NCBI GenBank assembly: GCA_949130485.1
Contig: OX422187.1
Location: 7,514,205-7,578,204 of the forward strand
DNA length: 64,000 nucleotides
Source: Agelas oroides
Taxonomy: Eukaryota; Porifera; Demospongiae; Agelasida; Agelasidae
Direction of reading: 5' to 3'
Part shown: one piece after another, positions 4,448 through 56,700 of the stretch
How positions within the stretch are numbered: the first letter of the stretch is position 1
Layout: each line of letters begins with the position of its first letter
Position numbers and translations under genes: made by a program
The notes under the pieces: generated by a model
What the model was told of the DNA's origin: nothing
Seen by the model: the letters and a program-made list of their open reading frames with translations, nothing else
Database searches by the model: none

Positions 4448-4750
4448 ATGACAGCAAGATCTTTCAGAGTTGAGAGTACAGTTTGTGGATACCATGTTTA
4501 CCAGGACATATGGACTCCAACTATTGCAGAAGAGCTACAAATGGCAAGAGAGCTATGTAGACAATGACCACAATATATTTGCTGTGTCAGGAATTGTAGG
4601 CCATATGCCTAGAGAAATATCAAGAGTCATCTGGTATTTCTTGGAGGGGAACAACACAATCACACCTGTAATAAACCACGATTCTCTACTGTTCCTGGGA
4701 GCAGTGTCGAGGTGCTGCATATCTTCATATTTAGGCCCCAATTTGTTGAT
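4448..4750 (+). pseudogene. Broken HIRAN-domain ORF
   Basis: From ATG 4448 one frame reads MTARSFRVESTVCGYHVYQD then IWTPTIAEELQ and stops. A second frame continues NIFAVSGIVGHMPREISRVI then WYFL, and a third has VEVLHIFIFR. These are three successive pieces of the same domain that is intact at 40056-40418: RIESTV-GHHVY, then FAV-VGHVPREISRV-WYFL, then VPCVYIFR. HIRAN domains in HLTF/Rad5 bind 3' DNA ends. At least two frameshifts make this copy nonfunctional. No terminal inverted repeats were found around it. Confidence 0.75.
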
Positions 4751-8700: not shown

Positions 8701-11700
8701 TACTGTTGTGAGGTAAAGATTCATCCTTGTGGGTATTTGCTAGTGAACTAGGCTCCATTCTTGCATACCTACGTAAGTCATCAAGCTTTTAGGATGACAA
8801 AGTAACATCATCCAATATGATGGAAGTAGCAGTAATTGGCTAGCTAAATAACTTTGTATCAAAGCTTCCACTGGTTGCCTGCACTCCAAGATTGGTAGCT
8901 ACTCTTGTATTAAGGCACTTGACAATTTTAACACAAGAAGGTCAGCAGTAGTGGATTGGTGATACCTTTGCTCACTATTTTTGCAGAATCAGAATCATTT
9001 TGCTAGCTAGGATTTGTAGCCTGTAACAGCTTTCGCTCTGTGGACTCTCTGCAGCAATCATATGTAGTGCATATGCTGGATGTAGTCTAAAGCTCAGTGA
9101 AGGGGTGTGGCCTGCAAGGCATACACAAGACATATTCTGCTCATGTGTATTCTAGTAATTTTACTTCATTGTTCCAGTGTTCCGTTATTTGGTCATTTCA
9201 TGATAGCAACATCACAGATCAAAGTTCTTACAAAGATTTTGTGTGTTCACACAAAATTTTTTGCAATTGATTGGCTTTGTTTTACATACAGGAGCTGCAA
9301 AGAAGCTTCTACAAGATCTTCAAGAGGACAATTCCAATGTTTCCTTGTGTCGTTTGTGTAAGGCTCATGTCTTCAAAGGTGATGATGTCACAAAGTTGGA
9401 ATTTTTCTGCTTTGATTTGGGTGAAGATGCTGAAGAAATGCTTGATCAATTTCATGTCATGATGAAAAAGGTGAAACCAAACCTCATTTGTAAACTTTGG
9501 GACACTGCTGTTGAGGATCAATATAGAACATTAACTTCAGGAAAAAATTCACCAGATGTTACATTTAGAGAGGTGTACATTCGTATCTGGAGGCCAAGCT
9601 ACCAAGAATGTGAGAACACAATTGAGCAGTTGTCGACTCTACAGCTTCCTCTTCACAAAGTGAAAGAATACTTTTTTTCCTACAGTGTCCAGAGAAAATT
9701 AGAAGAAGAGCTTAATAAACTGTGCAATGCCATAAATATCTGCCAAAAATCAAGCAGTCAAGCTTTCATAAAAACTCCATGGATCCGGGATGCTTCATCT
9801 ACAATTTTTACGTACAAACAACTGTGTCAGTATGGTGGAGCTGCAGAAACATTTCTGAAGCTAAGGGACACGCTAGGTCTGACTGGTGACTTTGCTGTTG
9901 TTGAAACACTATCGAAAGCTGTAAGTACTAAACTATTTCGTTTTCTTCTTTAACAAATTCAGCCTTTAAAGTTTGAAGTTGAAGTAGGACTTGGCCTTAA
10001 TTTGCATCTCAGTAATCTTAGCATCCACCTAACTCTGGGCTACTCAGTATGTTTGGCGTGCCTTTCAGTGTGCACAGTCTTGGAATTTAGTCTTTCTGCA
10101 GCTATGAGACACAGAAGGTCAAAGTCGGGACTTTGCTGTTGTTGAAGCACTGTTAAAGTATTATGCAAACATTTTTCTAACTAGACAGATGCTACATCAT
10201 TGTTGGGCAAGTCTAACTGAGCAGCAAACTTCTTTACAAAACTGACTGCTCACACATAGCAGAGAACTTCCACTAGCATAATTGAGTGTGTAGGTTGAAT
10301 AGCTGCATAGTAGCTATAGCATCCATGATGACCTACCTCTGCTTTCTCCAGTCTAGGACAACTATCCACTACTGATTCAACAGTACTAATGATGGCTATT
10401 TATGCTAGAATTGGTACATGCAGTTATTCCCCATGCATTTGGTAGTGGAATGCATGAAATTAGTGAACAATTTAAAGTATGGCCCGAATAGGTTAGTAAC
10501 TTCGCTTTTGGGGTCTGTGCACTTGTACAGCTCTGGCTCGGTTACAAACTTTGTCTAGGTTCCATCTTGTATGCCTCTGAAATTTAGCACTGTCTTGTAT
10601 ACAAACACTGATACAATTTTTGTTGTTGTTGTTATTAACTAATGCAGGGCTTTTTAGAGCACAAAGTTTGCCCTGAAGCAGTATTTACTGCATTAAATTT
10701 CTTGCTTTCAGATATCCACAGAGCTTGATGATGAAGCACTCCTTGAAAGCATTGATGAGTCATCCTCGGAGACTAGCGATGTTCTGAAGGATATTGCTGA
10801 CAATCCCAAGCACAAATTGTGTCTCGATGCATTCTGTAGAAGTTATGAACTTGTGAAATGGATCAGGGTGGAAACACGAAGTAAGCTGCAAAAACCAACA
10901 CTATACTTAGCTACCTTACATCACAACCACAAGGTAGTTTTCAAGTATCAAAAATAGTACACCTCTATAAAATTATTAAGTCATGCCTTAATGTACCTGA
11001 GTAGTTGATCAGGTCTGGGTTGTAAGACTAAGAGGTGAGGTGAATATACCACAACAATCCCAAAGAGGGCATGTGCCAGTATGGTTATTCACAGCCTCAT
11101 ACCCAGGCCACATGGGAGGAGGGAAAAGTGGCCTGGTATCCACTGTTTGTGCATGCGCAAAAAACCCCATAATTTCATGGGGTATCGTTTACGAACCATT
11201 AATCTTTACCGTATAGCTCCGAAGCATGTCTGTCTCGAGCTTATCCCGCGAACATGGCAGGTAAAAGCGAGGACTTTGATAAAGCAGTCAAGTTCGCTCT
11301 TTAATGTGTTGGAGAGATTTGGCGTTGAAAGCAGACCAGCTGGATGCGATCAAATGTATCTACGATGGTAAAGACGTATTCCTGTGGCTACCCACGGGAT
11401 TTGGGAAGTCCAACTGCTATGAGACTCTGCCGTTTCTTTTCAACTACAAGCACAGTGACGGTGGAACCGGCGGTGGTTGTAGCGTAGTCTTTGTCGTGTC
11501 ACCCCTTGTGTCTCTGATAATGGAAGCCATCGCCGTGTAAACACAGCTGCCACACTGCAAACCGTATATCTAGTTTGGTTATTTCTCCGCATAACAACCA
11601 CGTGTAACTTGTCCATAATCGGACTTGTTCGCAGAAGATTTCTGGAATCGTTTGCGCATGCGCAAACAGTGGATACCAGGCCACTTTTCCCTCCTCCCAC

Positions 11701-14700: not shown

Positions 14701-17700
14701 ACGTGAAATCTTGAAATCTTCATGAAATCTTGAAATCTTTCTGGAAATCCGGAAATCTTACATGAAATCTTGAAATCTCCATGAAATCTTGAAATCTTTC
14801 CAGAAATCCGGAAATCTTCAGCGAAATCCCAAGATTTCGAAATCTCGTACAGAATTTTTTCAGTGATCAACCCCTCGGTTGCAGTTATAGGCTAAGTCAG
14901 AACACAGTCTGGCATGCATAGTCCTTCAGGACTTGAGGCATCTTTGAGAAAGAGTAGCCACACATCAGCTATGGAGCAACGTCTCTGCCGCCTACTGTGT
15001 TCGGTAAGCTGCATGAGCCTTTCTACACACTGACTGTTAGCCCTTGTACACTTACTGAGTAGGTGTTACACTCCAGCTGCCTATCCCGAATGTCGCCGCC
15101 AAAACACAACTGCCATCTCTCGTACAATAGGTGTGCACGTTCCGGGTGAAATTTTTTTTTGGACGAGGTTCGAGAACTTAGTCGCAGAACGACGGAAAAT
15201 TAATGACAGGGTTGTACCCATTCTGGTAGCTGTACTTAATTGGAATGACGTAATATGCCTGTCAAGATCCGAGAAAGTCGCTGAGTTTGCCCGGTGTGTT
15301 GTTCCTTGACGTCTGAAGTTGACAAGACTGTCAAAAGTCATGATTTACCCACACAAAGTGAGAGGTTGAACTTTTCTATCGTACCGCTTTCAAGGCCTGC
15401 TGATAATTTACTTACTAAATACAGCACTGAAATGTTGGGTCTGTTGCCTTTGGCTTCCATCCAACTATCTGGCATGCACTATTTTGTATGGCATAGCTAC
15501 CATTTGGCGTCAATACTTGATTTTAGCATTGTCATTTTACTCTGCGATCTGAACTCTTGGAATCAACTGTTTTCTAAGCATCAATAATCAGGAAAGATTG
15601 ACCAGTCTGTAGTGTTAAACATCATGGGTTAAAGAGACTTTGAATGTTAAGTAAATGTTTATGAGGTTTGATGTTGCTGGTGGATCACACATTACGATGA
15701 AGAACCAAATCATTCAAGTCATCACAGTGTGTAAGAGAGGAACCTAATAGCAGAAGTATCACAATTGCACAGCAAATGTTAGTTTTGATCAGCAGAATTA
15801 ACATATTTCTAGAAATTGATATGGCATTTTCATTGGCTAAATTCATCATGTCACAAACATAAATGAGATGAGAATTTAAGAGCCATTTCATATTACCGAA
15901 TGACGTCATTCAGCTGACCAATGCAACTGCTTCTGTAAGATTGTGATAGCTCTGCTTTTATGTTCCCTGTTTACATGCTGCAACTTTTGGTAGGAATTGT
16001 TTGGTAAACGAAGTTGGTTGATGTTTTAACCTACAGTATGATGTACAAAATAGTGCATGCCAGTTGCTCTATGAGGGAACGCAAAGCAACACACCCAACA
16101 GTCTCACAGTAGTAATAGTATCATTTTGGCAGCCAGAATTTAGATAGGAAAGTTGTATTTTAAATGTCTCTAAGTCTAACCTCGTCTAATCTCTCACTTT
16201 GTGTGGATGAATCATGACTTTTGACCCACCTTGAGATGGGCAAAGAACAACACACTGGGTATTCACACGCAGCCAGCGACTTTTTCTGATCTTCACAGGC
16301 ATATTACCTACCAGAATGGGTACAACCCTGTCATTAACTTTCCATCATTTTGTACGAAAATGTTACTTACACTCTGCATGCGGCTGTCGCGCTAAATTAC
16401 AGCATCAAGAATATACGGAACGACGTACGACAGAAAATAATAATAATTGGGGCGAGCGTGAGCGAGCCCCTCTCTAGTGAGTTCTATTGCAATTTTTCAT
16501 ATATTACTAGGAGAATGTAGAACATTGTGGGGTGAGCGTGAGCAAGCAATACATTATATCAAAGGCTTTTCAGTCAAGTGTCAGATCACAGCACATAGGT
16601 GGCGTAGCATGTAGCTGAACAAAGCTTGTCACTCTACTCTCTACAAAAGTGCTTAACAGCTTAGAGAAGATGGTTACAGAGACTAGCTTGTCATGGGGTG
16701 GTACCATACAATGCAGCCATTAGTGCATCTACTCTGGCTAACTGTAGGCTAAGTCCTAAAACACAGCCTGGCTTGTCGCGCATAGTCCTTACTTGAGGCA
16801 TCTTAGAGATATAGCAGATGGGGTTCGCCATCCATCAGCCATGGATAGAAGGAGGGTCTCTGCCGCTTTCTGCTTTAAACCTCTCTACACAACTGTTTAC
16901 ATACAGTAGATGTATACTCAAACTGCTCACGCTCGATCCAGCTACCTATCCTGGATGTCGCTGCAAACACAACTTCTATATAGGCTATCCTTTGTTCAAT
17001 AAGTGCGCACGCTCCGGCTGCAATTCCTGGCTGTCTTCATAAGCGTCATCTTTCAAAGTCACCTTGGAGCTAACTGGCTGCTAAGTTGTTACGAAAATCT
17101 TATTAAGGTCCGCATGCGGCCCGCGGCTATCGCGTTAAATTACAGCGTCAAGAATATACGGAACGACGTATGTCGATTCAACTCACTAGTGTGGGGCTCG
17201 CTCACGCTCGCCCAATTACTAGGGGAATGTAGAACATTGTGGGGCGAGCGTGAGCGAGCAAGTCAGTGGGTTGGCAAGTTAACGCTTCACCAGTGTATTA
17301 CCAGCATGCGTGACAAGGTTTCTCACTCTCTCACGGTCTGTTTTATTATCATCAATGAAGGAATACCTGGAATACCTTGCCAATTATATGGAGAGGTACC
17401 ACACATTGGAACCATTCGTCTTGCCTAAGCAGCTACTCACACTGGGTTCTAATGTTTACACACTAAAAGGCAGAGACAGCTACTGCTGACCTCTGTCTTC
17501 TGTGAACACACTCGCGAGGCTCACTTGGTCGAGACGGGCCTCTCTCTGGTCCGAAGTCTCATGGGTCAATCTCCTTTGCCTCGTGAGGCTCACTTGCTCG
17601 ATCCGGGCCTCTCTCTGGTCTGGAGTTTCCGACGCTGATCGCTCTCTCCTCTGATCCAAGATCCTCTCCCGCTCGGCAGCAGACCACGAAGCACGACGAG

Positions 17701-20700
17701 CTCTATCCCTTACTCTCCGTCTCGCTAACCGTGTCTCCCTTTGTTGAGCGCTTTCAGCAGCGCGACGGTCCCTATCGCGTTGGTTTCTACGCCTCAGCCT
17801 TTCTCTTCTTTCATCGCGTTCCATAATTGAGTCGTACCTAAAGCGTTTTCCTGACTTTAAAAATGTAGCTAGCTAGCTGTATCAAACATGTGGGAATATT
17901 GCATCACGCACAAATAGGGCAGAATGTATATACGGAATCCGCACGTACCAAACAAACATATATATATATAGACAATTTTCCGTTTTCACCACAAGTGTGG
18001 GGGTCGCTGCGCTCGCCCCAATGGACAACTTTACTGTAAGCAAAAGAATGTTGATGAAATGTAATTGCTACATGACGTCACATCCGGAGTACGTACGCTG
18101 CTGCTCTGGAGTACTTTTTCAATGAAGTCTGTACTCAACATTGGTGAGTTCGAAATTCGCGCTCTGGCTAGCTCTACCGTATTTTCTAATAAAACGATTG
18201 CAAATCAGTTAAGCGCACGTGTCTAACCCTTTTTGTGAATGAACGAAGGTGCTATCTTGCTTTGTTGTGGAGAACCTGCTGGTTGAAGTTGGCTTACGGC
18301 ATCGCGCATTATCGGTACGTATTTACTTACCTGCCACCTGAACTCACCGCTCAAAGATATAGTTCAGCTTCCAATGATGCCTGCAGACCACGGCAGCGTG
18401 CTACAAGACAGCGTGCCAAGTGTAAGTTGTGGGTCATTTCGTACATCAGCGTTGGAAAAATGCCGGCTGCAGACGCGATGATGATCCTTGATGACAGTCC
18501 TGAAGGCCTAGCGCTTCAATCCATCACTACCATTTAGCTTCGTCTTGAGGAAAGCGGTGCATAGACCGTGACTCTCTTGTCTTCCGCTCGAGTATTCCCG
18601 CAAACAACGCACGTACCTCCGGGCATAATGGCAGCACCACAACTTCACAACCGAGCAAGATAGCACCTTTGTTCTTTCACAACAAGGATTAGACACGTGC
18701 ACTTAACTGATTTGCAATCGTTTTAAAACGGTACAGCTAGCCAGCGCGCGAATTTCGAACTCAGATGTACTCCGGATGTGACGTCACGTACAATTACAAA
18801 TAATTGAATACCTGAAGTCTTAAAATAAAGTGGTCTATTACTAGGGGAATGCAGTGCATTGTGGGGCGAGCATGAGGGAGTTGTATGGTGAATTAGTGTT
18901 CCATAGCGCTACCTTTTCCCACTTGCATACATCTCACATAACAATAGTCTCATTCCCAGGTCTTCCCCACCTCCAACTGTAGCCTAGGTGAAGAACACCT
19001 GGGGAAGAGGCTATGTAGGATATCAAATGTATGCTGGTGTTTGTGGAGCAATATAACTTGGGTATGTACTAATCTTGGGTTCATTGTACACACTCTGTGT
19101 CATTACTGTGAAATGGTAGCTACTGCTGCAGGCAACAAGGTCTCAAAGCATTTGGAGGTGGCTTGAACGGTTGCAAGTTGAGGATGAGGGTTCAACATCT
19201 TTGTACGAACAAATATATTCCGTTGGTTTCCTGTGTTTCCAACTTATTCACATCTTGGCACTGTCTCCTCAAGTCACAGTCTTTGCTTTGATATTTGCTG
19301 AGCACATACAGCTGTGGAATCAGGATTCTCTCAGCTTTAGTATGGGGTGTGGAGTCAGGTTGGTGCCAGGGCCGTAGGAAGCGGTCCGGCCAGTCAGGCC
19401 ATGGCCGGGCCACTTTTTTAGTCGTTTTTTAATTAAATGCAGGTAGCGTGCGATAATCTGCAATGGTGTCGCCATCTCTGCCATCCCTTCCTGAGGTTGA
19501 CGAAAGGCCGAACCAACCAATGCATTTCAAGTTTCCAAAGTGTCAGTTTGGACAAACTAAAGTTGTGAATCGCTCGTTTCAGTACTAGTGGTTCGAGAAG
19601 TGGCGTTGGATTCACTACGATGAGTCTCGTGACCTGGCATTTTGCCACACGTGCGTTATGGCGATGAAGACAGGAAAGATGAAAAGCGTTGGAAACGTTG
19701 ACTCAGCGTTCGTTTTCCGTAGGTATAGTAACTGGAAAGCTCTGAGGAGAGTAAAAACATACCTGCGAACAACAATGAACCAAGCTTGTCTCAACAGCTC
19801 AATGACTCTCCACATACACAAGGACAAGACTGACAACTTACCGCTAGATACCTGTGTAAATGACTTCGTGGCTGGCAATGAGCACAGGCTTACATTGTTT
19901 GGAACTTTCTAAATTCAGAGAACACTGCTGTCTACATTAGCTTATGTGTTTTTTGTATTGCAGTGTCTATAACTGGAACCGCTGACGATTTTTAGTCAGT
20001 AAAATCAGTTGGTGCATCTGATTGAAGTTTAGAAGCAGTTTTGCCTCAAAGCAATCTAGGAGGGTGGGGGTGGGGGGGGACGTGCATGCATATGCTTCGT
20101 GCACTAACAATCTTTCCCGTGGGAGCCTGACCATTCAAATATTGCTTCCTACGGCCCTGGGTGCGGACTACACTGTCAGCCCTTTTCCAGAGTACAATTA
20201 CTGGAGCTGTGGTATGGGGTTTTAGAAGCTGTTCTGTAGCTGTTGCTCACTAGGGTTATTTGGTCGAGTCACGCGGACCTCTCCGGTTCGGATCCTCACA
20301 AGCTAATCGCTCTGTCTTTAATACACTGAGCACTCCCCGTTGGCGGCAGTGTCACACAGCACGTTAATAATCAGTCTCCGTCTTGCTAGTTGTGCCTCCA
20401 TTTCCTCACCGTTTTCAAGTCCCTGTTACGTTGGTTCCCACTGTTCAGCCTTTCTGTCCTGCTAGTCTTGTCTCTTGAGCAACAGTGGTCAACATGCAAT
20501 GTGGAAATATTGCATCATAGGGCAGGATGTATATATACGGAATATGCACGTACCAAACATATATATATATTTGTATCATGGGAAGCCATAAGATGAAAGG
20601 CATTAAGGGTAATATTACCTGAAGAGCCCAATTTGGAGGGAAATATAAGCCAATTAGGAGGGAAATATTGATATTTCCCTCCCTGAGCCTGAGGTACAAA

Positions 20701-26700: not shown

Positions 26701-29700
26701 CACTCACGATTTAATCACTCACGATGTAATCACTCCACTCTCAGGTGTACACTTCTTGTGAACATGTTATAGCTATTACTACATTAATTTTGTAGCAAAT
26801 TTTGTCATTTGACCACCTTTCTAGCCAGTGCTGTGTATGTTTATATATGTTTTAGTAAGACTAATTTTGTAGCAATTACTATCTTTATAGACTTTTGACA
26901 TTTTTTTATCCCAATGCAGATGTTGGACAACTGCAAAATTTTGTGCAGGTTGCACTTGCAACGTCTGGAGAGGGAGATATGATACGAGATTTGCTCTCGC
27001 AGCTTCACACAGTTGGCAGTGCTTATGCATCACTCATTTATGATCTTCCAAAAGATGCATCTTGTCAAGCTTTAGTAGGCAGGTGTAAAGGACTGTGGGG
27101 GGACTTGGACAAGCATCCTAATTTGAGTCAGATAATTGTGAGTTAGAAATACAATGTAGTATCATTATCTGTGAACCCTCATTTTATTCATTTTGTGCTT
27201 TTCCATGTAGGATAGTTGCAACAAATGCCTAGGAGAGTTCCAGCGTATTAAAGAAGCTTTGGGAGATGTGGAGAGAAATGCTTTCAAGCTTATGGAAGCA
27301 ATAAATGCTAGTGGTGTGTATAAGATTGCATCCCGTGAAGGAAAAATACTTCATTGCATTGAGGATGCCATTGAACTGAGGGTACAGGGTGGTGTAAAAA
27401 ACCTTGACAAGCTCCGTGATTTACATAGTAAACTGGTACTCATTAGTGGCACTGCAACAAAGCCCGTAGGAAAGAAGTTTTTGGAGGTATGCTCATTAAC
27501 CTTACTAAGTTAATCATAGGTATCGTTCAACTTCAAACAGTATGTTTTCTTTGTAGGTGCTTCACCTGGTACAAGTGATTGCAGAAAAACTAGTTTTGTT
27601 ACAGCAAGCAGGAAATATCAAATATATTGGATTTGAAATGAAATTTAGCTGTGCTTGTGTTGAAGCCACAGACCTTGAGGACTACATAGATATGATGGAA
27701 AGGGACTTGAATACTTGGCTGCATCAAGTTGAGAGAAGTCGGAAAAAGTATTATCATTTAAACTACTTTACTGCAGAGCAACTTGTTTTGCTTCGAAAAG
27801 AGCTTGGGAGTGTCAGAACAAATCCAAAGTTATCAGTAAACCCTCAGTTGCATTGTTTGTTACAGAGTGTATGCTTGTTGCCAACACTTGAAATCATCAG
27901 ACATGCATTAGAGATAACAGAAGGTGAACAATCCCTCTCACTTAAAACTAAAACTGATCAAAGTTGTAAAGAATCCATCATTAGTACTACATTGAAGTAT
28001 GAATCTTTGTCTGAGAAGCAGAAGGAGATCTACAAGGAGCTAAAGGAGCAAGACTTTCAGGATAAGTTGATTCTTGATGCACTTGCTGAAGTTGAAGAGG
28101 ATGAAGAAGAAGCTAGAGATTGGTGTTTTGTCCATGAGGCAGAGTACAAAGATATGGAAACAAATATACCAAAACCTCAAAGCACCAAGATGATTGACAA
28201 AAATCATCCTCAAGTGCAAGAGCTTATGCACAGTTATGATTACCCTGTTGAGATTGCCATTGAGGCTGTTCAAAAGGCTGGTGAAGATTTTGAACGTGCA
28301 ATGGATATAGCAGTACTTCTCATACCTGGTGGAGGTAGTAATCATGATCCACTTGTTGAAAGCTGTCTTGCTACTACAAGGGAGAACTGGTAATCAATGT
28401 AGAATATATTGTATGTAAATACTGAGGTTTTCATGTGAAGAGCTTCACGTTTTTGAGTGGAAAAGTGGGAAAATGTGGCGATTGTATACAGACAAAGTTA
28501 TAAAAGTAAACATAATATACCAAAGTTGCATTTCTACATCTTTTTCACACTATATATGCATTTAAGTAGCATGCACCAGCAAATCTTTCTATAGTGAGTT
28601 GTTGTGTCTGACTAGTCAGAAACAACAAACTCCTGTGACAAGTGGAAGTCTTTTTTATTTAAACACAGTATAGGTGTAGGTGTATAGGGCTTTATGAAAT
28701 TGCTATGCATGGTAATCAAGAAGTCCAGTCCAAAAATACCAGTCCAGAATATATATAGTGTCCAATTTTATATCACAGATACGTATGTGACAATGATGTA
28801 GAAATTTTACTTCATATCATTGATATCATATCATCCCTATCTTGTTTATGTACATTATGGCTATTTCCACCATTTCGATTGTGTTCTTTCTTATTGAAAC
28901 AATTGTGTTTAGTAGTGAGTTGCCTTATTCTAATTGAAGTGGATAAAAGCACTGTGGTAATCCATGTACCATAATTAGATATCTGAATTTGGAAGGAAGC
29001 AACATTTTCTTCTTGAATCCAGTGAACTACTTACAATGTGCTGACTGTATTTAGATTGATCATATTTGTGTTACCAGAAATGTTATGGCTATGCATTAAG
29101 GCCAGTTGGTTTCTCACTCCCACCACCAACAAAAGATTCATCTTGAATGTGAAAATCTTGCTGTTGATGCAGGGGTTTACCATCAAGATACGTGGGCACT
29201 CCACTTACAGTTAGCTATACCAGTGAAACAGATAGAAAGTATTTGGGACTTGAAGAACTTGGTGAATTCATGAAAGAACTATCTTTCCAGGCTGCAGAAC
29301 AAGAAATGAAAGGTCAGTTTCTGTAGTAGTGCATTTCTATTCATTGGCACTGTTGCATATTGTGATTTAAACTGGATACCTCCCTAGAGTTGATATAACT
29401 GTTATTGTGTAGCACATGTATGTAGTAAAGCCAGTTGATCATTTACTTTTATGTACAATGTGCAGCTGACATCAATAGTTGAAAGTTGATGACAGCTATA
29501 GGTATGAATAGAAATTAAGAGAGTTCTATGCCAGCAGAAAGGGTGGTACAGTGAGAGGTGTTTGGGTGCCACCTAAAGTGTGACAGTACATGGCAACTTT
29601 TGTGGTTTGCTGTACGTAGAAAGCCTTCAGTTGGCACTGCATGAGTAGGCAATTTCTCTTCTTTGCACTAGTAACTTAGAAATCAATTTTCTCACCTTAT

Positions 29701-38700: not shown

Positions 38701-41700
38701 TGCACACATCCAGGTAACCCCCCTTCTGAAAATCCTGGCTACAGGCCTGCATGTACAGCCCATATACCAATATGTTAGCACCTTGTTGTAAAAGTTGATA
38801 GCTGAAAATGGTGCAAGTACATAAGGGACCTCTTAGATTTCACATTTGCTGCATTACCAGGCACTGTTGGGATAATTATACATGCAAAAGTAAGAGTGCT
38901 CTAATGTGTTGTCTCAATAGCAGACAGAAGCCACTTTTCCTCCGAGACACCCCACCAGGATGAGACAACACAGCAACAGTCCGTACGTTGGTTCGCCCAT
39001 CCTCCTAGTTAAGACTCCATCTATTGATCCCCACTTTGTTTAGCTATTTGTATATTCATAAACCATGTGAATACCAACCGAGAGTTAGACTCCTCAAAGC
39101 AATCCTGAGGCTTGTTGTTCGGCGGTAGGTATTCCTATACTGAAGATTCTTTCCCTGGACATTCGGGACTGTACTGTGGCACCTTTCTCGTGATGAGTAT
39201 GCTAGTTTGTCGTCAATACTTGGCAGCCACTTAGGTCTGAAGCTGAGACATTCAGTACACCAGTGGTTGTCCGGTGCTCATAGCTCAGTGATCAGAGCAC
39301 TGGCTCGCACTATATCATCAAACCTGTGTCTATTTACAGCTGATAGTCTAAAGCATTCAAGAAACAATTTACTTAAAATTTGAAGTACGTAGTTACAAGT
39401 CAAAAGCACACCCAAATAGACTCACAAAACCTATGTATACAGCCTTAGCTTCACATTCAGTACAGTTACTTAAGTAAAAAGGCTGCTGTCAACAAACAGT
39501 AAATATTATTGCCACTTGTGTAGCACAAAGTGGAAGTATGCAGTTAACTGTACAATTGCCACACTGAGGCAGACCTCCCAACTAAGATAAAACTGATTTT
39601 CAAAGTAAGCCACTGGGTAGTGCACACACAGAAAGCGTTGAGCTTATCGAGTGAATAGTTGTGCACTTTGTAACGCTCACTACACAAAGTATGGCAGTTC
39701 ACTTTTGGACTCGATAGTGCAAGGGAAGGTGCCTTGGACAGCCTGACAGCAGCAAATCCCATCATAATCATTACAACAGTGTTGTCTTCACCTCACATAC
39801 AGCAACATTTCATATACCGTAGTGTCCCGCTAATACGCCCCCTTCGAAAATACGCCCCCCCCCCCCTCTTTTCCGCCAAAGTTCCTGCACAGGGTAGTTT
39901 GACTCGTTATAACGCCCCCCGGTGAGCGTCTTCTGGAACATCAAAACTACACGTGCTTACTATACGTTGCAAGTGCGTTCAGTAAGACTATAGTAGTCGG
40001 TGAATCTTTTGTAAGTTTTGTGGCTTTTAGAAAAGCCGGTTAGATGTTCCAAGTTTTAAGCTGCTAGTTTAGCAAACAGGTTTATCAGTCTGTCAAGGTG
40101 TTTTTGTTTCCCTCTGAAGATGTACACGCACGGAACCACGAGTCCTTTCCCATCAACTTCAGAACGTCTTCTGTTACCATTGACGATGCAAGTCATCTCG
40201 CTGCTACTCTTGTGCAAGAAATACCAGCAGACTCTGGAAATTTCCCGTGGTACATGACCGACAGTGTTGCCGTTCTTGAGGACAGCTACAGCGAAGTCGT
40301 CGTGAATGTTATTGACCTCGTGTTGAACTGGCAGCTCTTCTCCGATGTAGGGAGACCACGCAGCTTTGTAAACGTGATGTCCGCGAACAGTACTCTCGAT
40401 CCTGAAAGTCGTCGCCATAGTTAGTTGGAAGTGTCCTATTGCGTACATAGCACTTGCGTAAAATCTTTTGGGGGGGGGCTTATAGTCGAGACTAATTGCA
40501 TCCTCGAATATAGGCCCCCCCCCCACTTTAGGCGGGATGTAGTGTACAAAATGGGGGGGCGTATTAACGGGACACTACGGTAACTACATAACGGAATGTT
40601 AACTCGGGTTAATGCAGGCCAGACCAGCATATGCAAGCAGACAACAACATGCTCCTGCACACTGCCCCTAGGCAGGGTGCTCAGTGCTGTGCTGCAGGTG
40701 CCCACATGCAATCAAATCAGCTGAGGATCACCATAGAAAGTAGTGGCAAATGGTGCAGCCAGCGCTGTAACAGCCTCAGTAGTCAGTTACTTTGACTGAG
40801 CAGTCAGTTTTTGTTACGATCGCAATGAGCAGGAAAGAGTCGCTGGCGTCCATCCATGTGCTGTGCTAGGAGGTTATACACCTTTGCCTTGCCAATGTCA
40901 AACTCTCATGCAAGGGTTTGAAGGATGCGATGGCCCGGCAGCTACACCAGCACCTTAATGCTCAATCAACCCCCACCCCGACTGCCCAGCACCGGTCCCG
41001 CTCAGCAAACCAACGGGCACCGTCAACACCAAAAACCCCTGCCTCTACGGCCGCTCACCAACACCAAGGATCGGCACCCACTATGACAAGTCAGCAGCCT
41101 TCCAGCCGGCCATTAACTAGGAGCATCAAGCACCAACTAGAGGGATGGCTCACTACCACCCCTCACAGCAGGCATTTGTTCGCAACCCCATCACCCAGCG
41201 GTGGTACAAGCATGGTCAAGCGTTGCTTTGGGCAACCCTCTGCCTATCCGGTTTCTAAGAGGTAGTGAATTCACAACCCCTAGCCAGGGGACCTTCAATC
41301 CAGCAATCCATGCCACTCCAGCAGATGTTTCATATCCACCTTCCACATTAAACAATCAAAGACAGATCAGCACGCCTTTGGTCACACAGTCTCTCTGGTA
41401 GCCACAGGAGGCAAACAGTGCCCAGTGCGATTCATATGGCATAATCTCACTCATTACTTGGCAGGACCATAGCAGTCCCTCTTCATCCGTTGCAACAGCA
41501 AGCCACTCACCTTTCAAGATCTTCACCATGACCTTTGCGTACTCATCAAGCATATTGGGCTCCCCCTTGAAGAATACAACACTCACAGCCTACGGATTGG
41601 AGCTGCAACAACAGCTGCGGCTGCAGGGATCTCGGGTGAGACCATCAAACAACTCTGGACAGTGGCACAGCAAGGCATACAGATCGTACATACGACCGAA

Positions 41701-44700
41701 GGGACACCTCACTTCCATTACCTCCCCCTGGCTCAACACAGGACTGGTTCTCCATGAAAATGTGGTTGGTTGAGTTAATATGCCTACATGCACAATACCG
41801 TTGTGTACTAGGTCATGCCAACATGTCATTCACCATTGGTTGTCAGTTGTGTATACCTATTTAAATTTGATGATCCTCATAGTTAACATAAAGCAATTGG
41901 CCTATTTGGGGGTAAACTTGGGCAGTACCCTTGTGGGGCCTGATCCCAATTAGCCCAATGCAGGCCAGCACCAGCGTCCTCGTCCTGTTGAGCTAGGGAG
42001 TCAGCACTCTTGAGACCCACTGGTATGCCAGCCTGACCCCTATCAATGGCCAAGCAATCAAGTCTGGTAGCTTAATAACGATGTGCACACAATCAGCGGA
42101 AAAATACCGTAGCATGTTTGATTATTGACAAATTTGGTCTCTTCATTTGGAACACTGTAGAAGCCTACGAATGCATGACGTCACAAAAGTTAAAAGTCCG
42201 TACTGAAGTGACAGTGAGTGGTAAGGTGGTGTATCACCACTTTCCTATACTTGTTGGTAAATGAAGTTTTATTCATGTGTTAGGTGCATCATGGCACTAA
42301 CCAATATGCACTCTGTTTCTTTAAGAACATGGTGATTATATGACTGCAGTGGCGGATCTAGAGGGGGGTTCCATGGGTTCCATGGAACCCCCCTTTTGAA
42401 GGGCTGCCTTCGCGTATACTTAGTAAGTCTGCGCAAATGTAACTACATCGTACATACACTACTGCCCAGACTGGAGATACACAGAAGCCACACTGAAGGT
42501 TCACAGTAGCCAATAACAAACACAATGACTACACTTGGCGGTAGGTCGTCCAGCTCTTGCTATTTCACCCCAAAACGGCACCAGAAACGACCTCAGAAGG
42601 TCTGAAATCAAAAAATTTTCTGGTGGGGGGGGGGGGGTGGGGGGGGTGGGGGCATGCCCCCAGACCTCGCCTAGCGGCCACGCTTCGCATGTTTTATTAC
42701 GCTTTGCCAAGCATAGCAACCAAGTGCACACTGGAAACCCCATTTTCAAAATCCTAGATCCGCCACTGGACTGTGATCTTGAAGGATAATTTACTGTTCT
42801 AATATCTACATCACACCAGATTATCAATGTCATTTTGAAAACTTAACTGCAGCCTTAATTTTTCTTTGTAGGGATTTGCTTAAATGTTTGCAGTCTTGCG
42901 TACGTGTTGTGATCTCAACTCGCCCTGGAATGGGAAAATCCCTCTATGTCAAAAGAATTGCTGAGAAAATGTCTTCCTTGTGTGGTGATAATACTGAGAA
43001 TTCCCAGTGTGTGTGCATCTCTGTGAATGGGCCAGAAGCTACTCCTGATGAAATTGTAGAGTTCCTACTCCCACACTACCAGGTCCCATCAGCTTCATTT
43101 GCACAGACACTTCATTTTGACATTGCCCACTCGGTATGTTGGATTATCGGTATTGCAGTTTCATTAGAGTTAGTAATGTAAAGTGCCACCTTGAAAAAAT
43201 TTATTTGCTAAAAGGCATTGCTAGTGTACAAAATATGCTAGCTGCAAATTGCTTTTCTCTTTAAGTGATAACAGAACTCCAAGTAAAAACAAAACAGTGA
43301 ATTTAAATGCACATGAAGAGCCCACCTTAACAAATCATTAAGCAGAGCCACTGCAGAGCTACTGCTTCCAGATGGCAAGTAAGCAACAAGAGAACAACAC
43401 TGACTAAGGGGAAGGCCATGAATGTGAAGAGTGCTAGGCAAGTGGTTCACTTCACAGAATATAAACTGTGTGCCAACTGATGATTTAGCCATCTTTGATC
43501 ATGATTTGCCCATACTTTTACAAACAACAACTGTTAAGTGCTAACACTTTACTATGGCAGCACTGAAGGTAATACTGTAGTCTACCAGCATGCTAGCAAC
43601 CACACACGGATTTGCATTAGCTTAGGTAAAACTGTACACTAAAGTTTGAAGCTTACTCATCTTAGGCTGAGTGAGAAAAGTCCCAAATGCATCAAGTCGA
43701 GGGGGCATAAAAAGAAAACAAACTTAATAATTTTGCAAGACCCTGAAGGATCTGAAGTAAAATTGGAATTCCACTAGTGGCAGGGTAAACATATGACAAT
43801 GTATTTAGCCTCGGTGTAATGAGATTTCATGTAAGTTCAAAGATTAAAAATATAAACAGGTTGCATCTTGCGCCTTCTTTGGCCTTAAATCTTGCTAATA
43901 AGAAAAATAAGGGTACTACCTGCTCAAATATACCGTAGTCTTGCGAAAGAGCGCCCACTCATGAAAGAGCACCCACGCCCTACTATTGGCCCAATTTCCT
44001 GTATAGGGTCAAAATGAGCACCCACCCTGGAATGAGCTTTGCGTGGAGTTTGAGAAGCGCAGCCTCAAGCGCTATGCATATCTGAGGTAAGAAACTTCGT
44101 GTAATACTTCACCAAAGGTTACTACAAGGCATCTTTGTGTAGACGGAGGTAGCTAATGCGGTGTGCACCGCAAGCTACACCATGCTCACAGTGACATGGT
44201 CCCATTCAGAGTGTTGTGTGCCATCAGGACTCGACTCCGAAGCTGCTGGTGGTTCCGTTGTACGTTATTATTTGTCCAATTATTTGCTTTGAGTGCATTG
44301 AGTCGCTGTGAACCTGACATGGGCGCTCTTTCGTGATTAAACGTGGAAACACTGAAAAGAGCGCCCACCCCCCTCTTTGGCAGACTTGTAAGGTGCTCCG
44401 CCATGGGTGCTCTTTCATGAGACTACGATATATAATATATACCCCAATATACTCATATGTAAATATGTATGTACATAAAGAGGGTCGTTGCTACTATAAC
44501 TAACTCTGTGTGTCTCGTTGTGACAACGATATATCTTAGTGGGTGTATGTGTGTGTGTGGGAGGGGGGTGGGGGGGGGGGGGGGGAATAAATATCCTCCA
44601 TTGAAAAAAAAGCGACAGGATTATTATATGTTACCTTGCCACTAGTGAAATTCCAATATTCAGATCCTTCGGATTCTTGCAAAATTATTAATTCCACATT

Positions 44701-47700
44701 GTGGCAAGGCTGCACATATGACAATGTATTGTTAAGAAGGTACCGTAGATCTGGAAATTTTCGTGTTGTAAAATTTTTGTGGTTTATTTTTTCATGTAAA
44801 AATATTTTTGTGGTCTAGGATACCCATGAAAATTTTTTAATGGTATTAAATCAATTCCACGTTCCCAGGTTTAATGATTTGGAATGAGACTACGTAAGCC
44901 TAGAAAACATGAAGTATGAACAGCTTGGTGCATTCGTGGCTACCACACAGCTGTTAGTGAATACTCGGGTGTGAAGGATAACCAACGAATGCTGTGGGTG
45001 CATATTGTGGCATTAAAGACAGACGATTTATCGGACACTGCGAAAGTTTTCACACGTTTGCCATGAGTCTCCTGCGGGTATGTATCGAAGAGGCTGTCTC
45101 GCGCGAAATAACTAGCTAGCTGTGTTGTTAAACCGTGTGTACATAAATGTGCTGTGTTGAAACCGTGTGTATGAAATTTGCTGACCGGAATGATTATCCG
45201 TTGTCCAATATATTTAGTGTTTTTTATTTTTTTGGTTTACGCAAACCACGAATATATTTTTACAATGAAAATTCCAGATCTATGGTGTAATCAATGCGTG
45301 AATGTGTTTAAGACTTGAGTACAACTTGAGAGAAATCATTTGTAATCTGCTTATGGTAGAACCTCTAAAAGTTAAACCTTCTTGCCCATTGGCACATGCA
45401 ACTGATCTGGGCAGCAATATATCTAGCTAAGAACTATGTGGTAGTACCAGAGGGCATTCAATACCAAGTCCAGCTGATAACAGGACTGTGTGGTAGTTAG
45501 TGCCAGAGGGCATTCAATACCAAGTCCAGATCCAGGGCTAACAATGCCTGGGAGTGCAATATCACTGGGTAAAATATTGGCCAGCATAAACCTTACTGAT
45601 AGCAGTCTTGTAAGTTGTAGCTTTTCAACTGATATTTATTATGTTGCCAAACTTAAGGTTATATTGAAGATCTGTCATACAAAGTGTTCCTATACTCCTG
45701 GAAATACAGTCTGTCATATAGGGGGTCCCCATGTTCATTAAGGGATTCCCATATTAATGTGAATATAGTCTGCTATACAGAGGGTTCCCATACTCTTGGG
45801 AATACAGTTTTTCATACACGCGGTCCCCATTTTTACTAAGGGATCTCCATACTCATGTCAATATGGGGTGCCATAAGCGGGTCCAGACCTCTCGAGGTCA
45901 GCAGCCTCATTTGATCGAGTCAGATTTCATTTCATAGTGTGTGAGATTTGTCGAAAATGAGTGAGACTCTGTCAATCACCCATTCTGGACACTCATAACC
46001 CGTCATGGTTGCTGTTGACATTTGGTCTGCACACTGGGTATAAAGCCTAAGCGTTTATTGTTGCTGTAGCATTACAGTTATGAATGCATCTTCCTGTGAC
46101 TTGTGTGTATTTGTAAGCATGCAGTTTGGGTGGCCAGCCGCTGCACTGTCATGAACACACTTTAAGTGCTGCAATCAGCAGCTTATGAAGACTAACATTA
46201 GGGATGTAACTTCAGTCCATAATAATGAAATTTTGTCATAAAAGGAGCTGCACTAAGGTACTCTAACTTTAAACTAGGTGAATGCAGGACACTGTGGGAG
46301 CGAGTGTGAACGAAGGGTAGACTGCACATATACATATTTATTTTTCCACAAACATGTTAACATGTTTTTGTTGTTACTACATCAATGTTGACAGTTTACA
46401 TACCACTATTATTGCATAAACAAACACACCACATTAAACAATGCGATAAACAACATTGCCTCAATCCACTGTTTTTAGAAAAGGTTGTAGTTTCTCACAC
46501 GTTAAGTTTCGACAAAATGAAATCATTGTGACCTTGGCAAGGTTGAATTCTGCATTTAACGTACACAAGAGGTGATACAGACAATTTTCCAGGCCTTTTC
46601 ATTGAGTTTTCCCCATTTAGCATCCTGCATAGCGGTATGTACATAAAGGACCAAATAACCAGGCAGAATTGATTACAACTGACAGTGGGCGGACTAATGA
46701 ATGCTATTTCATAAAGGTATAAAGGGTCTTCATCTGCCACCTCAGCCGCTAAAAGTAGTAGATCATTTATCACTCGACGTGACTTGATCTGTATTCATGT
46801 CCCCTCCTCCAAGACACACACAGTTTCAATTCCAATTGTAGTCCTTCCATGAGTCAGACCTACATAGTTCACCACCAGTGACAATCCAATGCTATATAGC
46901 CCAGACTAAGGACAAAAGTGGTTACAGCAAGCCCAAAAAGCTTACACATGGCAGCCATTCAATCCTCGTAAACTGTGGTTTTATTCCGCATAAATTTGTG
47001 TTATGAAGAATTTCCCGTATAGCGGGTTATTTCCTTGGGGTGCTAATTTTCGTTATTTTCGTGGTTAACCCTGGTGTCGTGAAATTTTCCACCTACATAA
47101 TTTTCCACCCACACTGCAGCTCTGTCCTACACGTGCTAACGTTCGGCCCGGGCGACGTTTTTTATAGCTCTTTTTCTCTACTTGTGCCCTTGTTGACAGT
47201 GCCCTTGATCCGTAGGGTCCCCTTTCTCAAGCTGTCCTGCGTGTGGTGATGGAGGAAGTGAACAGAGAAGTGAACAGGGCAGAAGCACGACCAAAAAACG
47301 GGGCCAGTACCTCTCGTTCAGGTATGCGAGCACCAACGGACTTTGTGCTTTTTAGACGTGGTAGCCTCCCACCCAAGACTCGACACTGAAGCGCTCCATC
47401 TTTCCTCTAGTCTTGTGTAGCCAGACTCTTTTCGGCAAGAGTCTGGCTACGCATTCCTCGTTGAAACCGCATCGTGTGTACCGAGTTCAAAGTTTACATT
47501 ACGTTATATGCAAGCCATGAAATTTAAAACCACAAAATTTAATTCTGAGGGCCTCTTCCAGCTTTTCATGAAAATTTCCACCCACGAAAATAACCCGCTA
47601 TACGGTATTTGAGGCCAATTTAACCATTCTGAGTAATAGTTTAATATACACTTAGTTAAGCATACATTGTAACTACCAAGATTTTGTTACACATCCAAAC

Positions 47701-50700: not shown

Positions 50701-53700
50701 GGAAAACACCTTCACCATTTGCTATTCACTATGAAATCTGAAACTAGTGAAGTATACTTGGGTAGTTCAGTGTAGAATACCCCTGACTAAGATCTGCTTC
50801 TATGAATTGCAGTACCTACTTGGCAGTTATCATACTCATTCCCATTATGGTAAAAGTGAAAATTTGAAACTGTTTACCAGAAAAATGAAAAAAAGTTGCA
50901 GAAACCTTGGATATAAATAGTTGGGTATATGCTAAATTGACCACATTCCTAATTTAGTCATGTGGCTGAATGCAGGAGTATATCTCAACAACTGTTGTCG
51001 TTCACAGTACACTTCAAAAATATCATTTATGGTAGCAAGGATAGGCCCATTTGAGCATGCATGTATGATTAAGGAATGTATGTACTAATAAAATCTCACT
51101 TGGCAAGATGATACATTATATGACTGGGAATATTTTTATATTGGTACCTACTAATTTTAACTACCCACTGACTACAATTAGCCACTACTTCAGTTTAATG
51201 GGCAACTTACTTTCTTGCTAAGTGGGATTTAGAAACAAACTAATGAGGTAAGCTAAGCAATGTTGTCTACCAAATAGACAGAAATGGTTTTTGAAATGGG
51301 TCAAAGGTGGGAAGATTGCCACGCTGACATCATGTGACCTTTCTTTAGGTCTCCTGCTCATGCAGTTCACGTTTCAGCTGTAGCTACGATTGATGTATGT
51401 ACGTCTTCCAAAGTAGCAGAACAAGTGCTCCAGAACCATAGCATCTCAACTGTGGACAGTTTGGCTGACGTTTACACACCGTAAAATCGAGTGTATGGAC
51501 AAAAAAAAATAACATTTTTACGTAGCTTGACAATTGGCAATTGAAATATTGAACCAGACAGGCCTCAATCCTGCTGAGTAGGCCTGGTACATGACTCAAA
51601 ACTGACTGAAGACTGCTTTTTTGCTAAACCAAAGCATCTTCCATCATAAGTATCAACAGGCTACTAACATGACACTTTGAATAGTAGAAATAGACACCAC
51701 ACTCTACTAGCACGCTTGCAACCATTAACAGAACAATGATGCATTTTTAGGCATAATTTAACTTTCCATAGTATTTATTCTGAAGATTGTTGCTCAAAAG
51801 TTAAGTAAACCATAGACACCTGCTGATAAGCCTCCAGTGTGTAGTTAAATGCCCTCCCTTTTCCGTGTACTTAAGGCCTGAGTCAAGCTATTTGTGATGA
51901 AAATTGATATTATTTATTGCCAGATTTTATTTTTCACTCTCACACCAACCAAATACCTCTTCTCAGACTTTTAAGATCAAATATTATAAACAACTATACA
52001 TCAGTGCAATACAGGCAGTACAACTGCACAAGAATAAAATTAATATGTTAAAGAAAAGTGGCAGAGTGAAAAATAACAGGTGTAGAAAAAGTAAAATATG
52101 GAGGGAAATGACATTTATTGATGAAATGGGAGTCCAGCTGGAAGTGCACTTGGTTGTAACTCGAAGGCCTGGTTTACCACTGTGAGGTGAGTAGCAAATA
52201 TCAGCACCAACTGGAATGAATGTGCAGACAGCATTGTGAATGAGAGGTCTCAGCAGAACTAGAATCTGAAGATGGCAGACTTTTATGAACATGTAGTGGA
52301 GCTTTCAATCTGAGCAGGTGTGCTGGCACTTTAAGCTATCTCCTCTTTCCTATTACAGGGGTCCAATGTTTCTTTTCATGACAGATGAATTTCACACCAT
52401 AAGCATCGTCTATCTTTTCATGTTCAACAGCTGTACATGCATTGAGGTCAACAGTTTGCTCTACTGATTTCCACGTAGTCACTGTTGTCAACTAGCGTCG
52501 GGGAACGCCTTGAGGTATTGCCACTATCATTATCATAATGCCCCCCATTCCAATCAACATCCAGCTTCACTGGCAAAATGTCAGCCTGCTGACCACAGTG
52601 ATAGTTGGACTTCCAGACTCCTGCTTGGCAGTGCTACTGGTAGGGTTGGAAGCAGGTCACTGGTGTTGGTAGTTGTACATTACTCTCTCTTCATCCTCTC
52701 CTTTTTTGCTTCCTCCTACAACCAGCATGCCTGCCGCTCTTGGTCCCATTTTGTGTACACTGCCAGCACTGCCCATCGAAAGTCCATGTTGTTACAACTG
52801 TAGACAGATAGACATAAGGACCCCAGTCTTTGCTAAGTCTGCGTCCAAGTCATCAACAACACAGATGCAAGTTTTTCATGCCTTCCTCTATTTTCTACAT
52901 ATGTCCTAAATCTACCATTGTGGAAGGAAACCAGCATTTGAAATTGATGATGATCGGTTGTGGATTGGAATATTGAAGCATTGTGTTGATGCAGGAATCT
53001 GTTGATTGAGAAAGGAAATAAACTTATCCAATTATCATATTTGGTTGTCCTGACTTTGTAAACATCTGCCACAACCACATAGTACTTACTTGTGCAAAAT
53101 CATCTCTGTGTATGAGTGTCTGAATTTGCCTGATATCTGAAGCTTGTACATTTGTTCTATTGCAGAAAAGGGGGGGGGGAAGGGGGGCATAGTGCATACA
53201 GAAGATGTACAACAACTTGGTAGCCATCAGTATAATAACGAGTTTTCTATTGAGCTGTTGTTAGTTAATTAGAACAATTGCTGCTTTCTTCATTATATGT
53301 TGTAGAATGTGATTGTTTTGCCAAATGACCATGTGTTAAAGTTTTGTCTGCAAGTTACCTCAAGCCTGGCTATGGGACAAGTTGCACACAGACACAGAGC
53401 TTTGAGATGAACTTGTGCCTATGTATATATATATATACAAGACTTTAAAAACATTAAAAATGTAAAAAGATGTAGGGATGGCATGCCAAAAAGTATGCAA
53501 ACAAGGTAGGAATAATTCATGAAAGCAAAGGTCAACATATTGGCAATGCCCCATCTTTTTCACACTACAGCTGATGGAATGCTGCTAGATCCTATTAGCC
53601 TTGTTCCTGAGCCAACGTGGGAGAAGTGGCCTGGGGACGAGGTTAAAACCATGCCATGTACTTTAATTAACGACACTATCATAAGTCTGCAATCTACTCC

Positions 53701-56700
53701 AACTCACTGCTTAAGTTGTTGAAGTGGTTCCGTATAACATAATGCTACCAAGAAGATCATACTAGCCTCGTTCCCAGGCCATGTGGGAGAAGGAAGTGGC
53801 CTGAGAACGAGGCTACAGGCATGAACTGCCAGTAAAGGTTGTGAACTTGTGGTACATTTTAGGAAGACCCCCCATGCTCTGTCTAACTGTAGTGTGAAAA
53901 AGATGTAGGGATGGGGCTTGTTTGCATACTTTTTGGCATGCCATCCCTACATCTTTTTACACTTTTAATGTTTTTTAAGTCTTGTTTCTGTACTTTTTTG
54001 ATGTTAATCTCAGTTACAGTTAGACCTAAGCCTAAAATATTTCAAGTGTAACCGCAACACCAGAACTTTTGAAACGGCGTTGACAGTTTAGTAGTGGTTC
54101 CAGGCATGAAATAATTATAGCCAGCTAGAACCTGATGAAGGGCCACCCACTCTCCGTACCAAACTTTGTGAAACCAATTCCATGATTCAGTTGTCAACCA
54201 CATGACGACTGACCAGCTGCACCACAGAAAACTATCATACTGACAACTGACCATCCTAGCTTTACAGTTCACTAAAGCTGTGAGTAGGCTGTTTTTAGTG
54301 TAGCTACAAGTAGGCAGCTGAGTGCAGCGCTTTACCTATGTGGTGTTCATAAGCCTTGCCCAATGCCGCGGGGGGAAAAGACCGTGCCAGCCGTGCATAC
54401 TGCCCGCTGGCGATTTCGCTTGTGTACTAGTCTTGCTTCCAGACCAATGACCGTGGTCTTTGGTCTGGGAACGAGAATTCATGTGCGCGTGCGTGCAAAA
54501 TTAAAAAATGGCGTCCTAAGCAATGGACAGCAGCCTCAGTGTTGTGAATGGCTTTTGTTGGCCAGGGTGAATTTGAAGCTATGAAGACGCTGAGTGGTCG
54601 TAGAACTCCGCGCTGTGATAAGCATCAGTTTCGTGCTAAAATGACGGTGAGCACTTAAACCATTTTCGAGATATCATTGTTGAAAGATTGAAGGCTGAAC
54701 GAAGAAAGAAAGAAAGAAGAATACGAAAAATGGCACTTTCGCTACCGCACACTGTTGCGTTTGGCTGTCTTCCGCGACGCTTTTGGGCAACTATATGAGT
54801 CTTGCTGATCACAAAGGCACTCAAAGAAGAAGCCTGGGTGCTTAAATAAGCTTTTAGCGCATTTGTGGTGAAGTTATACGGCTTTTGCTTAAGTATTGCT
54901 TATATTGCGCGTCAGCGCCATCCCTACATAGATAGAGAGTCTACAGACTATCTGATATGGGGCAACTGAAACGAAATTCCAGTGAATGATGAGGCAAGCC
55001 TGAGCTCTTGCAATCTAGACAGACCCCACCTAACATTTCAGTTAAACAGACCCAGCCCAGTTTTTCAGCTAGACATACCCAGCCCAGTTTTTCAGCTAGA
55101 CAGACCCGACCCAGTTTTTCAGCTAGACAGACCTGACCCAATTGTTCATCTAGGTTCTCATATCAAATCGTGAAGTGAGCAGGGGAATCTCTGCTATCTG
55201 TTGGTTTGAGCAGCCCAGTTTTTACTATTTTGAATCCTGAGGGTGAAGCAGTGAGCCATTTAGCTATGGTACACTAGTACTTAACTCTCAGGTCACTGGG
55301 GGTGCAGTTTAAACTTGTTTATAATTCAGAACTAATAAAACTTGGGGGTAGCTTGAGTTTTATTTTATGAATAACCTACAAACCACCACGGCAAGAAAAA
55401 TATTTGTAGTAGACTACTCGTAAGCTCCTGATTTTATAGACCATAGTATATTTAGAGACTATAGTTACAGATGCTACTGGAAATGAGGACATGACAAATA
55501 GAAGTTTTAGATCTGCTATTTCATCAAAAAATTATTCCGCAGGTACATGAAAACAAATGTTACTCCATCCTGGTCAGAATTCTGGAATTTCATCAAATTC
55601 CTGAGCTTTCAGCTTCAAGACTGCGAAATGAGCTACTATACTGATCCTGATATCATGGATGATGGTTCACTGTCTGGTTTTAAAGAGTTCATTGTGAAAT
55701 TTATGATCCAGATGTCCAAGGTAAATGCATACATGATGCAGATATACCGCATAATTTCCTACTTTGACCCGATTATCTTACTATATACTTCAGGAATTTA
55801 CATCTCCTTCTTTGAAAAAAGCTTGGGAAGCTGAAGCTGAGGAAGAATCAGAAGATGATATCATAGCAAAGTACAACTTCATTGATGAACAAAGATGGAA
55901 CACAAGGTTGGTGTGCTTGAGTATGGGCACCTGTGACTTGTCTTAAGCTTTAACAAGGGAACACAATTTCTCCCAGTGTTACCATATATAGTACTTTGTG
56001 TGTTTTTAATTTATGCATCCCCCTTTCCAGAAAGCAATGGCAATTTAATGACAGAAGTAATGTTTAATTTTTTGTCAAATATTTGTAGACTTAATATTGC
56101 GATCCTGCAGTACTCACATTACTTTTATCTGGGCATGGTCCTGCGAGTGAGGTTTCATTTCAACCCTACTATTAGAGTTGTAGGTTGCAGTAGCTAGCTG
56201 TCCAGAGAGGAACAACTATAATGGAGCTAAGTCACCCCTGGTCAGTTACTACTACTTGAACGGTTAAGGCATCCTTAACTTTGTTACTTGTAACACGGAA
56301 GTACGTGAAGATATGAGTTTATGGAAATTGAATGGCTGCCGAATGTAGGATTCTTTGCTTTGTCATCATTATTCTGACCGTTAGTCTTTTCTGTATAGCT
56401 TTGTTTTAGCACTGGTTGTGAAATAGGTATGTCTGAATTTCAGAAGAGATATCACTGAGACCGAGAGCTGTGTGTTTCTGCAAGCAGGACAGAAGTAAAG
56501 CTCAAGTCATTTCAAGCGACAATGACTGATTGTGATTGTCTTTGGCAGTTTATGTGAAACATTAGCCATCCTTAGCATAAAGATCTCAGGCCATTTCTGT
56601 GTACAATATCAAATGTCACAAAAAAAGTTTTCTGAACGAAAACAAGTGCATGTAGGGATGGAACCCTCAAAAACCAACCAAAGTAGATGGGAATGACACC

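Follow-up and report, generated by a model that had tools for sequence, protein, structure and literature searches.

Pack-type elements are gene-capturing DNA transposons in which non-autonomous ends surround a host-type gene. MITEs and other non-autonomous members of the IS630-Tc1-mariner (ITm) group are short and TA-flanked, with short terminal inverted repeats (TIRs) and no transposase; MITEs are also non-coding and present in many copies. Among autonomous ITm families, Sailor (DD82E) is reported from bacteria and from one sponge species, the latter with a 4.1-kb copy; its TIRs usually start with GT or CC, the target duplication is mostly TATA and the transposase is of DD78-111E type (PMC8533490). 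Pogo elements duplicate TA and have TIRs of at most 40 bp in most families (PMC7386202). The HIRAN domain, for its part, is described from the remodelers HLTF and Rad5. In HLTF, the R71E substitution prevents binding of 3'-OH ends (PMC11366124) and N90A-N91A disrupts HIRAN function (PMC11237066), whereas the HIRAN domain of Rad5, in which two of the ten contact residues of HLTF are conserved, binds single-stranded DNA with no 3'-end preference (PMC7804152), so 3'-end binding is not to be assumed for a distant HIRAN. Isolated HLTF HIRAN (residues 1-180) inhibits the removal of Cas9 from cut DNA by HLTF and the ensuing resection, and the NANA mutant inhibits both far more weakly (PMC11237066). 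Stand-alone HIRAN proteins of bacteria and a HIRAN protein of a fish iridovirus are also reported (PMC6563503), and a paper on MORC ATPases suggests that the domain might derive from bacterial restriction-modification systems and comparable mobile elements (PMC2292703).

Positions 39815-40582 of the window, the whole 64-kb stretch of DNA analysed here, constitute a real 768-bp element with a real HIRAN gene, known from one copy. Its terminal arms are 28 nt long and 96% complementary (27 of 28 positions paired), and both read TA followed by CCGTAGTGTCCCG[C/T]TAATACGCCCCC. The left arm (39815-39842, plus strand), TA with a 26-bp TIR, pairs with the right arm (40555-40582, minus strand), a 26-bp TIR with TA, and the 26-mer is unique to the element within the window. 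A search for the 26-base end that tolerates up to three mismatches locates it at two sites in the 64-kb window, both in the element itself; the highest count in 100 dinucleotide shuffles of the window was 0. TA flanks the element on both sides. Outside it the flanks are unlike, with TATA running up to the left border and TAAC at the right, which excludes a target duplication longer than TA and leaves at most a TA duplication. The same difference means that TA alone could also belong to the repeat, which counts against a TA-target reading. The other long frames within or overlapping the element (40068-40421 and 39674-39922 on the plus strand, 40439-40711 on the minus strand) have no Pfam match at E <= 1, so the element is at most a non-autonomous member of a transposon group. 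The inverted-repeat element that the initial annotation had placed here, with its lack of a transposase and a stand-alone HIRAN protein as its sole gene, is thus borne out by the ends, the domain match described below and the frames just listed.

The HIRAN frame lies at 40056-40418 on the minus strand (120 codons plus stop) and starts MATTF; an in-frame upstream ATG would extend it to 40448 (130 codons), and the reading frame is open for 172 codons, from 40059 to 40574. When the element was shuffled by mononucleotides, 24 of 1000 sequences contained an ATG frame of at least 120 codons, so length is weak evidence and the case for HIRAN rests on homology. The translation matches Pfam HIRAN (PF08797) over profile positions 21-82 of 96 with E=1.1e-6 and a score of 28.8 bits (cut-off 24.7), and the best five PDB sequences are HLTF HIRAN chains (E 0.009-0.012), confirming the annotated open 120-codon minus-strand frame as a HIRAN gene. 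Both searches place the same domain in this frame as in HLTF and Rad5, but the SNF2 and RING parts of those remodelers are absent, the 768-bp element carrying HIRAN only. In lacking catalytic domains the frame resembles the stand-alone HIRAN proteins of bacteria, phages and the fish iridovirus, which differ in lying outside transposon TIRs. Weak profile matches were obtained to PADLOC PDC-M03B (E=3.1e-6) and phrog_8026 (E=0.0013); the PADLOC and PHROGs profiles are mostly longer, and only their C-terminal part is matched. An AlphaFold model computed from a 4-row alignment had a mean pLDDT of 37.2 and is too poor for use. The motifs AATAAA, ATTAAA, TATAAA and TATATA are absent from the coding strand of the element. 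A proposed tie between G tracts and the G4 activity of HLTF was dropped, because that activity is reported to need the ATPase and not HIRAN (PMC11366124).

Searches for protein relatives confirmed none in the viral_contigs collection, where one stretch matched the pattern, or in genome_contigs, where 103 stretches did. A pair of degenerate DNA patterns covering conserved parts of HIRAN matched 3 and 13 stretches, respectively, in viral_contigs. The three were judged chance matches (best tblastn 10 residues, E=0.008; surrounding frames unlike HIRAN), and for the 13, tblastn returned nothing at E <= 1.

Just inward of the ends, a TIR-like motif (roughly TCGnnnATAnGCCCCC) recurs four more times. 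The left two point in the same direction: one at 39843-39860 (plus strand) and a looser one at 39901-39920 (plus strand), which is 81% complementary to the right end and was recognized by eye, the regular expression having missed it. The right two, at 40474-40492 (minus strand) and 40502-40520 (plus strand), are an inverted pair and form the opposite arms of a hairpin at 40470-40523 with 21-nt arms, 90% complementary, and a 12-nt spacer. The regular expression for the motif has five matches in the window, all five of them within the element, where it picks out both ends and three of the inner copies. Folded as single-stranded DNA, 40464-40530 reaches -21 kcal/mol (z -5.84), with none of 200 shuffles equally stable; for the minus strand of the complete right end, z is -3.23 (1 of 200 shuffles), and the left end shows no structure (z 0.85; 167 of 200 shuffles). 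We infer that the inner copies are putative transposase-binding sites.

Possible relatives of the ends came from scanning genome_contigs (257 billion bases, both strands) for TAGTGTCCCGNTAATACG, a pattern with 17 specified bases. Six stretches matched, where about 30 chance matches are expected by our own estimate, so a match to TAGTGTCCCGNTAATACG alone means little. Four of the six (L002-L005, OX638355.1) are copies of one IS630-type insertion sequence (IS) in a single Terriglobia MAG, which thus has at least four near-identical copies. They share blocks of roughly 1155 bp that are 99.3-100% identical, and the IS codes for a DDE_3-domain protein of 362 aa (E=1.5e-23). The exact string GTGTAGTGTCCC retrieves seven ends in the four loci, every one preceded by TA, and misses the eighth. 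The window ends begin CCGTAGTGTCCC after TA, and a 10-base core occupies positions 3-12 both there and in the Terriglobia IS. The TIR of the element has GTAGTGTCCCGTTAATACG in common with one IS end, at the same register relative to TA, the right end being identical at 19 of 19 bases and the left end at 18 of 19. In the other two stretches (L001 and L006) there is no TA in the corresponding register. The IS also differs from the element in being autonomous, about 1.15 kb long and starting with GT, whereas the element starts with CC. The register shared with an IS630-type end offers good but not conclusive support for placing the element, judged from its ends, in the TA-target IS630-Tc1-mariner group.

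Within that group the element shares the CC start of the TIR with Sailor, but its left flank reads TATA and its right flank TAAC, which is not the TATA duplication of Sailor, and no Sailor-type transposase was seen. TA and the TIR length fit pogo, although the element itself carries no transposase. In being short and TA-flanked, with short TIRs and no transposase, it resembles MITEs and other non-autonomous ITm elements, but it carries an intact protein-coding frame; it is 768 bp long and has one copy in the 64 kb. The TIR patterns had no match in viral_contigs; searches turned up no autonomous element bearing these ends in viral_contigs and, in genome_contigs, only the Terriglobia IS, both being non-animal collections. 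In the literature, the string GTAGTGTCCC retrieved no transposon paper by title among the matches listed.

HIRAN sequences occur at three places in the window, and one of the three is inside these ends. The decayed copy at 4.4 kb, which the initial annotation had noticed, is real: it spans 4454-4676 on the plus strand in two frames separated by a gap (tblastn E=1.9e-14; phmmer against six-frame segments 4.4e-8 and 1.9e-7 for the two frames), is frameshifted and lacks the element ends. A weak N-terminal piece of another decayed copy lies at 6993-7088 on the plus strand (tblastn E=0.015; phmmer E=0.052), again without the ends. A profile of all copies revealed no fourth in the window (next E=0.26); as the profile was built from the copies themselves, the good scores of the relics against it are not independent. 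In eight comparisons searching for the element ends around both relics, the score was equalled by 16%-99% of the random window stretches, of which up to 100 were used. No inverted pair was found enclosing the 4.4-kb relic, and a 14-nt, 86% inverted pair around the 7-kb relic was taken as chance. The relics may have lost their ends with age, so the lack of ends is no proof of capture.

The intact frame and the relic at 4.4 kb diverge in a codon-dependent pattern. Over 74 aligned codons, positions 1, 2 and 3 are identical in 48, 56 and 30 (Fisher p=4e-5, positions 1+2 versus 3), with dN 0.35 and a dS that was not computable and is read as saturated. Against the 7-kb relic, 19, 18 and 13 of 32 codons are identical at the three positions (p=0.13 in the same test), with dN 0.60 and dS 2.3. 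The pattern against the 4.4-kb relic shows protein-level selection on the HIRAN family at some past time. The signal, as read from these alignments, belongs to the past of the family and is not tied to the element interior. Of the selection or recent activity that had been proposed from the open frame beside a decayed copy, the family-level part is therefore upheld (48/56/30, p=4e-5), whereas selection inside the element is not.

The surroundings resemble an animal-type gene. On the plus strand, frames at 9207-9950 (E 1.4e-4), 27557-28390 (a weak match upstream of the element, E=0.054; best RNF213 chain E=0.037), 42876-43181 (downstream of the element, E=1.7e-5) and 55511-55831 (E 7.3e-11) match residues 905-1013, 1312-1352, 1618-1698 and 1842-1894, respectively, of the PDB RNF213 chain 9jw1. 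The match positions rise along the window on both sides of the element, which suggests that one RNF213-like gene seems to cross the window from 9207 to 55831 and that it hosts the element in antisense orientation between two exons, in what looks like an intron. Both HIRAN relics are upstream of the first RNF213-matching frame tested (9207-9950). The exons of the RNF213-like gene are widely spaced and its introns are repeat-rich. The window has a G+C content of 42% and is depleted in CpG, at 0.48 of expectation.

We consider it somewhat probable that the element is a non-autonomous, TA-target ITm cut-and-paste transposon moved in trans, with HIRAN as captured cargo. It would have inserted antisense into an intron of the RNF213-like gene. 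A transposase encoded elsewhere would move it by binding the 26-bp ends and perhaps the inner TIR-like motifs, and the HIRAN frame would most likely have been captured from a dispersed family of stand-alone HIRAN genes of the host and carried as cargo. That the frame is still intact may reflect a recent capture or insertion, or a protein that is still selected; the protein, if made, should bind single-stranded DNA, possibly 3' ends, by analogy with other HIRAN domains. Several results argue for this reading: the ends are near-perfect and unique in the window, the TIR-like motifs cluster inside them, 19 bases stand in register with an IS630-type end of which seven copies are preceded by TA, HIRAN passes the Pfam cut-off, and HIRAN elsewhere in the window lacks these ends, as expected if the gene family exists independently. 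The intronic placement is supported by the rising order of the RNF213 matches. The reading is weakened by the single copy, with no second pair of ends in the window, and by the fact that no animal transposase was seen together with such ends, and the ITm assignment by the number of chance matches expected and the two stretches with no TA in register. What sets the element apart from Pack-type elements is its cargo, one small, intact frame that encodes a DNA-binding domain.

A different role for the protein, which we regard as unlikely, is that of an accessory gene that aids transposition, HIRAN capping the free 3' ends of the cut element or donor site and keeping host HLTF and resection off until joining. 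The roles in transposition, excision-site repair or fork-directed insertion that the initial annotation proposed gain no direct support from these results. The frame is intact and both other HIRAN copies in the window are broken, and the HIRAN family bears the trace of past protein-level selection; that trace, however, is not linked to the element, and no second HIRAN-bearing element is known. The residues also divide. In the alignment from the PDB search, with HLTF numbering counted by hand, an NN equivalent to the N90/N91 pair is present, but R71 is not kept, an Ala being aligned with it and a Lys lying one residue earlier. The inhibition of Cas9 removal and resection by isolated HLTF HIRAN, reduced when N90/N91 are mutated (PMC11237066), suggests by analogy that a transposon-encoded, stand-alone HIRAN could do likewise at transposase-cut ends, whereas the requirement for R71 in 3'-OH binding (PMC11366124) and the indifference of Rad5 HIRAN to 3' ends (PMC7804152) argue against a cap. 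The broader proposition suggested by the same analogy, that an animal cut-and-paste transposon family encodes a stand-alone HIRAN helper that caps cut 3' ends in competition with host HLTF, is very doubtful.

Ends and gene may instead be a composite, HIRAN having entered a resident TIR element separately, for example as a retrocopy or with another element, or being flanked by end fragments by chance, with the unit as a whole never having moved. The scatter of HIRAN copies away from these ends and the single, uninterrupted HIRAN frame speak for such an origin, but ends, TAs and inner motifs form one unit, 27 of 28 positions paired, and chance is not expected to bring two ends of this kind together; we hold a composite to be quite improbable. 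Most improbable, in our estimate, is that the element is an internal deletion of a larger autonomous ITm transposon (Sailor-like, pogo-like or other) that encoded both transposase and HIRAN, the latter being left over: TA and short TIRs suit the group, the TIR starts with CC and the bacterial IS with GT, the two usual starts of Sailor TIRs, a 4.1-kb Sailor is present in one sponge species (PMC8533490) and the Tc1/mariner-group elements TBE and Tec bear extra frames (PMC7325037), but no Pfam transposase remnant is found, the right flank is TAAC and not the TATA of Sailor, and the non-animal collections viral_contigs and, bacterial IS aside, genome_contigs yielded no autonomous partner with these ends.

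Within the literature searched, the HIRAN-carrying element is undescribed. Judged by titles and the beginnings of abstracts, that literature contained no eukaryotic transposon encoding HIRAN, and it included nothing on HIRAN in sponge transposable elements or in connection with Amphimedon. A repeated occurrence of HIRAN within ends of this type would mean that a DNA transposon exploits the module by which host fork remodelers recognize 3' ends, and would open a direct route to learning how transposon ends, once cut, are shielded or passed on to repair. If the capture is a one-off, it would still show how a DNA-binding domain may be spread by transposon cargo, and it would bear on the scatter of decayed stand-alone HIRAN copies in the window.

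The window holds other repeats and domain matches. About 0.9 kb from the element, a plus-strand frame at 41473-41754 has a weak Phage_integrase match below the Pfam cut-off (E=0.014) and looks like a tyrosine-recombinase relic. Another element-like inverted repeat, with ends CCGTATAGCGGGTTATTT, lies at 47020-47600, and two 69-bp inverted repeats at 53437-53505 and 53917-53985, 97% identical and about 0.4 kb apart, probably delimit another short transposon. STPR repeats occupy 17483-17872 on the minus strand (Pfam STPRs, E=3.6e-11), and a DEAD-helicase match (E=5e-7) is present at 11283-11537 on the plus strand.
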